The notes below the pieces were generated by a model, which ran no database searches, was not told where the DNA came from, and was given only the letters and a program-made list of their open reading frames with translations. From an uncultured Candidatus Saccharibacteria bacterium (GTDB lineage: Bacteria; Patescibacteriota; Saccharimonadia; Saccharimonadales; Saccharimonadaceae), in assembly GCA_947306745.1 (NCBI GenBank), contig CAMZHH010000004.1, forward strand, positions 1 to 48,613: DNA of 48,613 nucleotides. Direction: 5' to 3'. Positions 7,822-47,773 of the stretch are shown piece by piece; position 1 is the first letter of the stretch; the number at the start of each line of letters is the position of its first letter. The position numbers and the translations under genes were made by a program.

Positions 7822-7898
7822 GGGTCCGTAGCTCAGCTGGTTAGAGCACCTGCCTTTTAAGCAGGGTGTCGTGAGTTCAAGTCTCACCGGACTCACCA
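7822..7898 (+). tRNA. tRNA-Lys (anticodon TTT)
   Basis: Acceptor GGGTCCG/CGGACTC, D-arm GCTCAGCTGGTTAGAGC, anticodon stem CCTGC/GCAGG with loop CTTTTAA (TTT), T-loop TTCAAGT, encoded CCA. The last 12 bases are the first element of the 66-bp tandem repeat that follows. Confidence 0.96.
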
Positions 7899-8040
7899 TT
7901 TTTTTGGACAAAAAAGTGAGGCCGGTCAGATTTGAACATTTGAAAATCGAAGCCGGACTCACCATTTTTTTGGACAAAAAAGTGAGGCCGGTCAGATTTG
8001 AACATTTGAAAATCGAAGCCGGACTCACCATTTTTTTGGA
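7887..8040 (+). repeat. 66-bp tandem repeat built from the tRNA-Lys 3' end
   Basis: Two identical 66-base units (7887-7952, 7953-8018) and a 22-base partial third (8019-8040). Each starts with CCGGACTCACCA, the 3' end of tRNA-Lys, then T7. Each also holds an inverted, slightly changed copy of the tRNA 3' part: 7916-7937 and 7982-8003 match the complement of 7875-7896 in 19 of 22 positions. The units therefore fold as strong hairpins (GTGAG-G-CCGG/CCGG-A-CTCAC) followed by T7, looking like serial terminators. Confidence 0.9.
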
Positions 8041-8047
8041 TAAAAAT

Positions 8048-8080
8048 ACTCCTCGATATTACTCGAGGAGTTCATTTTTT
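8048..8080. terminator. Bidirectional terminator
   Basis: ACTCCTCG/CGAGGAGT hairpin with T-runs on both sides. It closes the tRNA-Lys repeat region on plus and the secreted-protein gene (8083) on minus. Confidence 0.8.
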
Positions 8081-9117: not shown

Positions 9118-9248
9118 CACACCTCACTTGTTTATTAACTCTATTTTAACACAATCATTTTTCGCATATGTTGTAAAAAATACAACAAGAAAGCCGCATC
9201 CGATCTTTCTGATTACACGAATATCTATATACCGATTCACGGACAATA

Positions 9249-9275
9249 AAAAAAGAGCCGCGACTCCGGCTATTA
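9249..9275 (-). terminator. tRNA-Gly terminator
   Basis: AGCCG/CGGCT hairpin followed on the minus strand by six T, about 10 bases after the CCA end. Confidence 0.65.
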
Positions 9276-9283
9276 ACATGAGA

Positions 9284-9359
9284 TGGTGCGGGTTAAGAGA
9301 CTCTAACTCTCGACCTCTTCCTTGGCAAGGAAGCGCTCTAACAACTGAGCTAAACCCGC
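9284..9359 (-). tRNA. tRNA-Gly (anticodon GCC) with U19-A56
   Basis: Complete cloverleaf: acceptor GCGGGTT/AACCCGC, D-stem GCTC/GAGC, anticodon stem CTTCC/GGAAG with loop TTGCCAA (GCC), T-stem GAGAG/CTCTT, encoded CCA. The D-loop is AGTTGTTA, so position 19 is U (9341) instead of G. The T-loop is TTAGAGT, so position 56 is A (9304) instead of C. The normally invariant G19-C56 tertiary pair is replaced by U-A. The other four tRNAs in this window keep G19 and C56. Confidence 0.93.
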
Positions 9360-9395
9360 AAGTTCTGAATAAGATTATACACAACTTCCCTCTTT

Positions 9396-9425
9396 TTGAC
9401 AAGCACTTCATATTTGTCAGATAAT
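9396..9425 (+). promoter_or_regulatory. Promoter of the HD hydrolase gene (leaderless type)
   Basis: TTGACA at 9396-9401, an 18-base spacer, GATAAT at 9420-9425, then 6 bases to the ATG at 9432. There is no room for a Shine-Dalgarno site. Confidence 0.7.
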
Positions 9426-30370: not shown

Positions 30371-30398
30371 CCCCCTTCCGGGGGGTTATTTTTTATAA
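30368..30398. terminator. Bidirectional terminator between rel and glyQS
   Basis: AACCCCC/GGGGGTT hairpin with a TTCC loop and T-rich tails on both strands; the last bases overlap the glyQS stop. Confidence 0.8.
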
Positions 30399-31709
30399 TT
30401 CTGCAATTTTCACACGTACCTGCTCAGTCGTATCGCGATCGCGCACTGTTACTGTGTCATCTTCCAAAGTATCGAAATCAATTACGACGCACTTTGGTGT
30501 ACCGATTTCGTCTTGCTTGCGATAACGCTTACCAATATTACCAGAATCGTCCCAAGTTACATTGCCATATTTCTCGCGCAAAGCCTTGTAGACTTCCCGT
30601 GCTTTTGCAACCAACTCTGGCTTATTTTTCAAAAGTGGCGATACGCAGAAACGATATGGTGCCAAATCTTCAGGAAGCTTCAGGAGCGTACGCTTCTCGC
30701 CATTCACTTCGTCTTCGCAGTAAGCCGTGCACAAAACGGCCATCACGAGGCGTTCTACGCCCATTGAAGGCTCAATTACGTGCGGAATAAAGCGCTTACC
30801 GCCTCCCTTCACGATATATTCCATATTCTTACCGCTTTCGCGTTGAATATTACCCAAGTCAAAATCTGTACGATAAGCGATACCCATCAATTCTTCGCAA
30901 CCAATTGGATAGTCGAATTCGATATCGATCGTGCGCTTCGAATAATGTGCACGGTCCTCGGCCGGGACGTCGAGCTCGTGAATATTTTCCTTCTTCAAAC
31001 CCATCTTGTTTTCGAGGAAATCATGACATCCAGCGAGCAATTTATCGAAGTTCTCTTCCCAAGTTTCTGGATCGACGAAATATTCAATCTCCATCTGCGA
31101 AAATTCGCGCGAGCGGAAAATAAAGTCACGTGGCGAAATCTCGTTACGGAAGGCCTTACCCTGCTGTGCCAAACCAAATGGTAAATCTGGGTAAATCGTA
31201 TCGACTACGTTCTTGTAGTTAGTAAAGATACCCTGAGCGGTTTCTGGACGCAAATAAGCGATATTGTCCGGGTCCGTACCAACGCTCGTGCGGAACATAC
31301 CATTAAACTGCTTAATATCCGACCAATTCGTTTTACCACAATTCGGACATTTCAAATTCAAAGCCTTGAACTCCTCAGTCGTAACATGTTCTGAAATCTC
31401 ATCAGACATTTTGTCAGCACGAAAGCGATTGTGACATTCTTTGCACTCTACCAACGGATCATTAAACGTCTCAGTGTGGCCAGAAGCCTGCCAAACCTGC
31501 GGATTCATAATAATCGCGGCGTCAACACCATACATATCTTCGCGATCGTCTACCCAGTACTTCCACCAGGCATCCATAATTTTCTTTTTCAAAGCTACGC
31601 CGAGCGGACCAAAGTCCCAAGTACCAGCCATACCGCCATATACATCTGAACCCTGCCAGATAATTCCACGACGTTTACATAGGCTTACAATATCATCCAT
31701 TTTTGCCAT
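30393..31709 (-). CDS. glyQS: Glycyl-tRNA synthetase, class II alpha2 type
   Basis: 438 residues, eukaryote/archaeal-like homodimeric form. Class II motifs: FGPLGVALKKKIMDAWWKYW with motif 1, FRNEISPRDFIFRSREFSQMEIEYF as motif 2, and GVERLVMAVL as motif 3, followed by an anticodon-binding domain (VSPLLKNKPELVAKAREVYK). Two Cys pairs (CKECHNRF and CPNCGKTNW) form a zinc site in the insertion. It charges tRNA-Gly and so would have to recognise the unusual tRNA-Gly at 9284. GGAG lies before the ATG, after a leader of about 125 bases. Confidence 0.96.
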   Translation of the reverse strand: MAKMDDIVSLCKRRGIIWQGSDVYGGMAGTWDFGPLGVALKKKIMDAWWKYWVDDREDMYGVDAAIIMNPQVWQASGHTETFNDPLVECKECHNRFRADKMSDEISEHVTTEEFKALNLKCPNCGKTNWSDIKQFNGMFRTSVGTDPDNIAYLRPETAQGIFTNYKNVVDTIYPDLPFGLAQQGKAFRNEISPRDFIFRSREFSQMEIEYFVDPETWEENFDKLLAGCHDFLENKMGLKKENIHELDVPAEDRAHYSKRTIDIEFDYPIGCEELMGIAYRTDFDLGNIQRESGKNMEYIVKGGGKRFIPHVIEPSMGVERLVMAVLCTAYCEDEVNGEKRTLLKLPEDLAPYRFCVSPLLKNKPELVAKAREVYKALREKYGNVTWDDSGNIGKRYRKQDEIGTPKCVVIDFDTLEDDTVTVRDRDTTEQVRVKIAEL

Positions 31710-45409: not shown

Positions 45410-47773
45410 TTAGTTGCCGCCACCGAGATCGAATTCTCCAGCAGCCCAATCGGCGGCATCTTGCTCTTCTTGAGCAGCCTGTTGACGAGCGGCTTCTTGT
45501 GCGACGCGCTCTTCAGCTTCACGCTGGCGAGCGGCTTCTTGTTCGGCTTCGCGCTCAGCATCTATACGCGCTTGTTCTTCGGCAGCCTGGCGTTCACGCT
45601 CAGCTTGTTCGGCCACTTCACGTGCGGCTTGTTGCTCCGCTTCAATGCGCGCCTGTTCTTCTGCGCTAGTGTCTTCGGTTACTTCAGGAGCGACATAATC
45701 ACTGCTTACGTCGCCACGAGTATCGGTACCATCCGCACCCGCATCTTCAACCTTAGATTGATCTTCGACAACTTCCGCAATCGTACGACCGCTACCGTCA
45801 CCACTATCAAGGTTCGTGTCCATAGCGCCTCTTTGTTCATTAGTTTGATCAACGACGCCATCACCATTATTGTCGCCCGTGCCTTCTTCTACTTCGTATC
45901 CGAAGTTTCCCTCATCCGGATTGAAGTCACCTTCTTGTTGATTTGGCTCGGTTAATTCACCAGCATCAAGCTGCTGCTGATCGTCGCCACCGGCATTTTC
46001 ATATTCAGCTTCTTCATTCTTTGGATCAAGACCTGGAGTCGGAGTCGGCTCTGGGGTTGGTGTCGGAGTTGGTTCAGGAGTTGGAGTCGGAGTCGGCTCT
46101 GGGGTTGGTGTCGGAGTTGGTTCAGGAGTTGGAGTCGGAGTCGGCTCTGGGGTTGGTGTCGGAGTTGGTTCAGGGGTTGGTGTCGGAGTTGGTTCAGGAG
46201 TTGGTGTCGGAGTTGGTTCAGGAGTTGGAGTCGGCTCTGGGGTTGGTGTCGGAGTCGGCTCTGGGGTTGGTGTCGGAGTTGGTTCAGGAGTTGGAGTTTC
46301 CGGAGTTGGAGTCTCCGGAGTTGGAGTCTCCGGAGTTGGAGTTTCTGGCACAACATCCGGAGTCTCTTCAATGCTCTTCATACCCTCGACACCATCGACG
46401 ATAAGGTTGCCGCATTCTTCGAGGAAGTATTGCGTATCCAATACACTACCATCTTTATCCATTACATCCATCGCAATGATAGTTTTACCGGTAGTGTCAA
46501 TCGTATCGTAAGCACCCTCCGTAGTCTTGTAAGAAATTTGTTGACCTGGGTAAGTTGCCGAACGCATATAGAATGCTTTGTGCATGCCATCCAAGGTTGT
46601 CTTGCGATAATGCGAACCGTTAATTGTGTAACCAATCTTTTCTTGCATTTGCGCATAGAGGTCACCATCATTTTCAACCGCATCGCAGAGCTCGTCATAA
46701 TTCAAATTATCAAGCGCATCAATACCTTTTGCATCGGCTGGAAGGTTTGCATATAATGCGGCTGCAGCCTCAGCCTGATTGCCGTAGGCTTCTTGGAAGG
46801 CAGTGCGATATTCGGAATCGTTTTGAAGGCCTTGCAAACGCTCAGGGCTTGTAACGTCGAGTGGGCCAATCTTATCTCCGTTATAATCATTGCCTAGTTC
46901 ATTCGCAAAATCAGAGCGATAATCAATCTTATATCCACCGAGCGATTCTTGGTTATAATCGAACTCCGCATTCATCTCATCCGTAATTGGAGTACGATCG
47001 GCATCCCATTGGTTGTGTTGCATTTCATTTAGCTTTGCGCCACCAAATAGTAATGCAGCACCAAGAGCGAGACCGCCAATTACACCACCAACACGAGCGA
47101 GTCTTGGATGGCGGCTAATAAAGCCCATCAAGCCACGGCCACGTTTTTTGTTCTTTTCAGCAACTTCGTTATTTTCTGCAATTTCTGCAGAATTATTTTC
47201 TTCAACGGCTTCAGTATTGATATTCTCATTTGAATCTTCACCAGCAGCTTTCTTTGAGGCAGCATTTGCTGCTTCGCCAAGCGTTGCACCAGCAGCTACT
47301 GCAGCAGCTGCGACAGCAATCGCTTCGCCATGAGAATCGTTGCCATCTTCGCCAGCCTCGGCGGTAGTCGTTTCGGCTGGAGCAGCCTCAGTAGCAGAAG
47401 CTTCCGTAGTAGCTACAACAGCAGCAGCAGCAGCAGGAGCTTCTTTCTTATCTTCTTCCTTCTTAGCGGCAGCTTCTTTTTCGCGGTTTGCCTTCAAGGC
47501 ATCAAGAAGCGTTTGGAGGTCAGCAGGATTCGTCCAATCACGAGTATCCATACCGTTCTCAATATTAAGACCAGCTTCTTTGCCGACTCTGATAATTTCT
47601 GCACAGTAATAATTATCGATTTCCTTATTGAGCCTCTCACACTCTTTCTTTTCGGCATCCTCCGCGCTATTCTGCTCAGCTTCTGCCGTATTTTGCTGCG
47701 ATGGGTCCATATTCCAGTTCTGTGCATCTGGATTTACGCCCTCATCTTTGCGTGGTGGATTTTCTCCTGCCAT
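45410..47773 (-). CDS. Large anchored protein with Pro-Thr-Glu repeat stalk
   Basis: 787 residues, family not recognised. Residues 1-205 are acidic and Ala/Glu-rich, cytoplasmic; [19 protein letters not shown] precedes a membrane segment at about 226-247 ([17 protein letters not shown]). An outer globular region (250-470) follows, then a PTPTPTPE repeat stalk (about 475-580), an Asp/Glu/Gln-rich part, and a long Ala/Glu/Gln/Arg coiled coil (about 700-775). The repeat and coiled coil suggest a long extended surface fibre or spacer. AAGGAACAAGAG lies before the ATG. The KRGxGLxGFI motif recurs in the small gene at 48284. Confidence 0.8.
46031..46345 (-). repeat. DNA repeat encoding the Pro-Thr-Glu stalk
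   Basis: Imperfect 18- to 24-base repeats (plus strand GGTGTCGGAGTTGGTTCAG type) encode (PT)nPE units. Such arrays easily change in copy number. The plus strand shows spurious open frames here, which are shadows. Confidence 0.85.

Follow-up and report, generated by a model that had tools for sequence, protein, structure and literature searches.

Can a bacterial tRNA that has exchanged the G19-C56 tertiary pair of its elbow for another pair still serve translation, and what keeps the exchange in place? The question is raised by a tRNA-Gly(GCC) gene of an uncultured Candidatus Saccharibacteria bacterium (GenBank assembly GCA_947306745.1, contig CAMZHH010000004.1; the whole 48,613-nt stretch analysed is referred to here as the window). 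Since the ribosome, RNase P, and many enzymes stack on G19-C56, the pair is treated as fixed in all elongator tRNAs. An earlier note, made from the letters of the window, had read U19 and A56 in this gene, and the ARAGORN and Rfam calls together with a base count (G1 = 9359) bear out that reading (Table 1).

Table 1. Positions in the window of the features discussed in the text
Feature	Position	Strand	Remarks
tRNA-Gly(GCC) gene	9284..9359	-	76 nt; encoded CCA; discriminator A73; called tRNA-Gly(GCC) by both ARAGORN and Rfam (RF00005, 70.0 bits)
U19, D-loop	9341	-	All G in the other elongator tRNAs read in the genome
A56, T-loop	9304	-	All C in the other tRNAs read in the genome
Sigma-70-like promoter	9374..9402	-	TTGTCA-17-TATAAT, 11/12 matches; just upstream of tRNA-Gly(GCC)
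Intrinsic-terminator-like hairpin and T tract	9247..9271	-	Just downstream of tRNA-Gly(GCC)
Glycyl-tRNA synthetase (GlyRS)	30393..31709	-	Presumed dimeric (alpha2) type, by sequence recognition; consistent with A73

The gene shares with the canonical bacterial elongator tRNA-Gly(GCC) its cloverleaf, GCC anticodon, U32/A38, G18-U55, U54-A58, G10-C25 with G45, G1-C72, and CCA, and differs from it in having U19-A56 instead of G19-C56 and A73 instead of the usual U73. It agrees with the glycine tRNA consensus (G1-C72, C35, C36, and (G10-Y25):G45; PMC9976931). G18, U54, U55, G57, and A58 are the consensus bases, the D- and T-loops contain no further departures, and the promoter, terminator, and EF-Tu-binding pairs are all normal. 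The window contains four further real tRNAs (Val, Lys, and two Leu), all of them normal, as the earlier note had held. A tRNA-Ser(gga) called by ARAGORN (46278-46355) was discarded as a false positive; it has no Rfam match and lies inside a repetitive Pro/Thr/Glu coding stretch. Directly after the tRNA-Lys(TTT) gene lie tandem repeats (7871-8050), whose overlapping ORFs show recurring peptide motifs.

The departure is confined to one isoacceptor within the genome. The 935-kb assembly (90% complete) contains 42 tRNA matches (Rfam), among which ARAGORN sorting identified exactly one Gly(GCC), the sole complete tRNA without C56; the approximately 40 remaining tRNAs retain G19-C56. The search for a Gly(GCC) with normal loops elsewhere in the genome, proposed in the earlier note, thus returned only the U19-A56 gene, and no second, normal GCC copy was found in this genome, in the single-contig class genome G197 (909,550 bp; 35 tRNAs), or in the 19 named genomes described below. 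Gly(GCC) alone departs at 19-56 in G197, as it does in the partly masked class genome G261. In relatives, C56 is present in every tRNA flanking the gene other than one tRNA-Gly(CCC) of a saccharibacterial-like record (L180); apparent shifted T-loops among these flanking tRNAs are genes without an encoded CCA that were parsed out of register. The exceptional tRNA-Gly(CCC) has U19-A56 and is apparently a copy of a GCC gene with a changed anticodon, and the GCC gene of the same record has A19-U56. In the window's own genome, tRNA-Gly(CCC) has the T-loop UCCGACU, which places C55 opposite G18.

The pair is lineage-wide and not local, as far as the genomes surveyed indicate. With search patterns that left bases 19 and 56 free (any base), the genus gave 41 tRNA-Gly(GCC) genes from 40 of 45 genomes, every one with U-A. 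In the family, the 93 genomes matched (of 151) had solely U-A or A-U; most of the remaining genomes carry U38 and are U-A, and one is A-U. Matches were obtained for 204 of 215 genomes of the class (relatives that we take to belong to Saccharimonadia), with U-A or A-U in every match listed; the listing covered all but approximately 50 of the class matches. When distinct genomes were added by hand, the matches listed represented approximately 255 class genomes, approximately 225 with U19-A56 and approximately 30 with A19-U56, and included no G-C, C-G, G-U, or mismatch at 19-56. Three Candidatus Saccharibacteria records (L152, L168, and L178) carry the same tRNA, and the first of them differs from the window gene solely at 19 and 56. 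The earlier note's view of the change as compensatory and beyond chance is upheld by the 41 identical pairs in the genus, and its suggestion of a lineage-specific elbow holds for the genus and the class, the other tRNAs checked keeping C56. This pattern points to selection on tRNA-Gly(GCC) rather than to error or decay. Separately, U38 replaces A38 in the Gly(GCC) of many genera of the family (e.g., L083-L087), with loss of the U32-A38 pair, which is linked to decoding accuracy.

The orientation of the pair has changed many times. For 42 class genomes placed on a BipA protein tree, parsimony gave 16 changes between U-A and A-U, and at least 11 changes were forced by well-supported branches. 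(A GlyRS tree was discarded as a species tree because it conflicts with the taxonomy codes, and BipA was used instead.) At least seven T-stem backgrounds carry both U-A and A-U versions. Within the family, several genera have identical A-U genes, which suggests horizontal exchange; the tree changes may therefore outnumber the mutational switches. From A-U, G-C can be reached via a G-U step alone; the change to U-A must pass a mismatch. That the easy return to G-C was never seen argues that G-C is disfavoured at 19-56 in this tRNA-Gly(GCC), and was not merely lost once. Across the class matches listed, then, 19 and 56 are always complementary and repeatedly switched in orientation, and they never form G-C.

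Beyond the class, the G-C pair prevails in the phylum and has been lost in others. In the rest of the Patescibacteria, a D-stem variant present in 68 genomes has G19-C56 throughout, and genes with the window-type D-stem mostly have G19-C56, the exceptions being five A19-U56 genes spread over three families; approximately 130 further Patescibacteria have a tRNA-Gly(GCC) outside both patterns and do not enter this count. A scan of named genomes, with a pattern built for A-U and therefore silent on U-A elsewhere and on the frequency of G-C there, detected at least 114 loci with A19-U56 in Gly(GCC). Among the matches listed were at least 72 loci from Clostridia, 22 from Bdellovibrionota, 10 from Bacteroidota, 3 from Gammaproteobacteria, and 1 from Peregrinibacteria (each at least), plus a few from Saccharibacteria. 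Each of 19 genomes checked, 17 of which are not Saccharibacteria, had one Gly(GCC)-type gene, always with U56. Judged from these gene sets, genomes whose one detected GCC gene has A19-U56 also occur among the Clostridia, Bdellovibrionota, Bacteroidota, Gammaproteobacteria, and Peregrinibacteria.

A second elbow switch was found in tRNA-Cys(GCA). In 89 class genomes, its 18-55 pair was either G18-U55 or A18-G55, with no mixed cases; the covariation is perfect, and switches are many across the class (e.g., L047, L049, L092, G202, and G206). Compensated rewiring of the D- and T-loops is thus a feature of at least two tRNAs of the lineage, Gly(GCC) and Cys. The earlier note had allowed that U19-A56 in many unrelated tRNAs would make the change ordinary drift; the other tRNAs checked keep C56, and the change in tRNA-Cys is a separate one, at 18-55. 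In G197 (L307-L352), tRNA-Cys has the T-loop AGCGTTA with A18; AGCGU replaces UUCRA, and both 18-55 and 54-58 appear to be swapped when set against the consensus.

The codons read by tRNA-Gly(GCC) are abundant. Of the Gly codons, GGY accounts for 84% in the window (59 per 1000 codons) and for 71% in G197 (48 per 1000). With a single GCC gene and such heavy GGY usage, the gene content makes it probable that tRNA-Gly(GCC) serves translation, although weak reading of GGY by tRNA-Gly(UCC) is conceivable in principle.

The reading that we favour, to which we give somewhat less than an even chance, is that this is a functional, heavily used elongator in which 19-56 has been selected as a Watson-Crick pair with two hydrogen bonds, perhaps offsetting a strong anticodon. 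In these cells, the remaining tRNAs depend on the same ribosome, EF-Tu, and RNase P, and retain G19-C56. Selection on Gly(GCC) alone would maintain a Watson-Crick pair weaker than G-C yet still able to stack at the elbow, and indifference to orientation in a two-hydrogen-bond pair fits a demand for a weaker, still flat elbow. Tuning of tRNA bodies toward uniform decoding is known, and within it the weaker elbow would most likely compensate for the great strength of the GCC:GGC pairing, and might act through easier accommodation, translocation, or E-site release. All three ribosomal sites (A, P, and E) contact the elbow pair, and both translocation and frameshifting are affected when the elbow is weakened (PMC4810234). 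For Ala and Gly tRNAs whose codon pairing is GC-rich, uniform decoding is known to require balancing elements (PMC7566577, PMC11231383). Known idiosyncratic tuning (32-38 in Escherichia coli tRNA-Ala(GGC); 15-48 and 54-58 in eukaryotic tRNA-Ala) likewise alters a conserved pair in one isoacceptor with a GC-rich anticodon, whereas here the elbow pair 19-56 is affected and has switched back and forth repeatedly within a bacterial class. Against tuning by anticodon strength, Ala GGC, Pro GGG, Arg GCG, and the Gly CCC of the same genome keep G19-C56; a strong anticodon alone therefore does not predict the swap. Nor does anticodon strength explain the switch in tRNA-Cys, whose GCA anticodon is not made of G and C only. 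More broadly, and only tentatively, 19-56 may be an isoacceptor-specific site of tuning or recognition, from which G-C is excluded class-wide and repeatedly lost elsewhere; together with the 18-55 switch in tRNA-Cys, this would make the elbow an evolvable functional dial.

Compensated neutral drift is a possible but doubtful alternative. It holds that any Watson-Crick pair works at 19-56, that G-C passed through G-U to A-U ancestrally, and that U-A and A-U have since been exchanged without a function of their own. Complementarity in every match listed agrees with it, as do the comparable two-state swap in tRNA-Cys and the form found in other phyla and a few other Patescibacteria, A19-U56, which is two steps from G-C via G-U. 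Yet with an easy return from A-U open, no G-C or G-U appears among the matches listed for approximately 255 class genomes, through at least 11 tree changes. By our own estimate, 11 changes that all avoid G-C and C-G would have a chance of approximately (1/3)^11, near 6e-6, if the three other Watson-Crick pairs were equally open at each change and the changes were independent mutational events. No such drift is seen in the remaining tRNAs of these cells.

An anti-determinant is unlikely, though it would account for the exclusion of G-C with tolerance of both weak orientations, for the restriction to one isoacceptor, and for the repetition in unrelated phyla. Loss of G19, C56, or both would hide tRNA-Gly from a factor that reads the elbow, such as a regulatory RNA, a toxin that cuts tRNA, or an enzyme of tRNA processing or modification; any such factor is hypothetical. 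Escape from pseudouridine-55 synthase is unlikely as a common cause, because Y56 of its motif (GUUYRANYC; PMC7912444) accepts the U56 of the A-U forms. No T-box was detected at Rfam thresholds within the window.

The earlier note had also suggested a non-ribosomal, EF-Tu-avoiding role, by analogy with staphylococcal tRNA-Gly set aside for cell-wall bridges. The cell-wall tRNA-Gly of Staphylococcus aureus is likewise a glycine tRNA with an altered D-loop GG; its G18-G19 is replaced by UU or CU, its EF-Tu pairs are weak (A49-U65 and A51-U63), and it stands beside normal tRNA-Gly genes (PMC4052509). The window gene, in contrast, keeps G18, has changed the partner of base 19 as well, so that the pair is compensated and not broken, and is the sole GCC isoacceptor (one GCC gene also in G197) under heavy GGY usage. 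Its EF-Tu pairs are the strong ones, G49-U65 and G51-C63, which have been lost from the cell-wall tRNAs of staphylococci (PMC4052509). The analogy fails because copy number, EF-Tu pairs, and compensation differ, and we consider such a role very improbable. Sequencing error or a pseudogene has a negligible probability, given an intact gene with a promoter and terminator, the same pair in all 41 genes of the genus, and the loss of G19-C56 shared by the class.

tRNA-Pyl and mitochondrial tRNAs without G19 or C56 resemble the window gene in departing from G19-C56; they lose the D-T loop interaction or change architecture, whereas the window gene keeps the interaction with another pair. In the literature searched (open-licence papers only, and so weak evidence of novelty), no report of U19-A56, A19-U56, or the tRNA-Cys switch was found. 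An essential tRNA that is never G19-C56 in a class and always Watson-Crick would set the requirement of the elbow, a flat pair, apart from the identity of its bases, and the class offers a natural system for testing elbow strength against decoding. All of the evidence is sequence, much of it from metagenome-assembled genomes. Models for tRNA finding and modification that were trained on G18-G19 and T-Psi-C should be applied with care to tRNA-Gly(GCC) and tRNA-Cys.

The GlyRS of the window is presumably of the dimeric (alpha2) type, and homologues were found in 46 of 47 class genomes (G191 had no match). Synthetase type as the sole cause of the swap was ruled out, since G19-C56 is lost with A73 in the class and with U73 in other phyla. 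The conflict between the GlyRS tree (homologues L219-L263) and the taxonomy codes suggests frequent synthetase exchange in the class.
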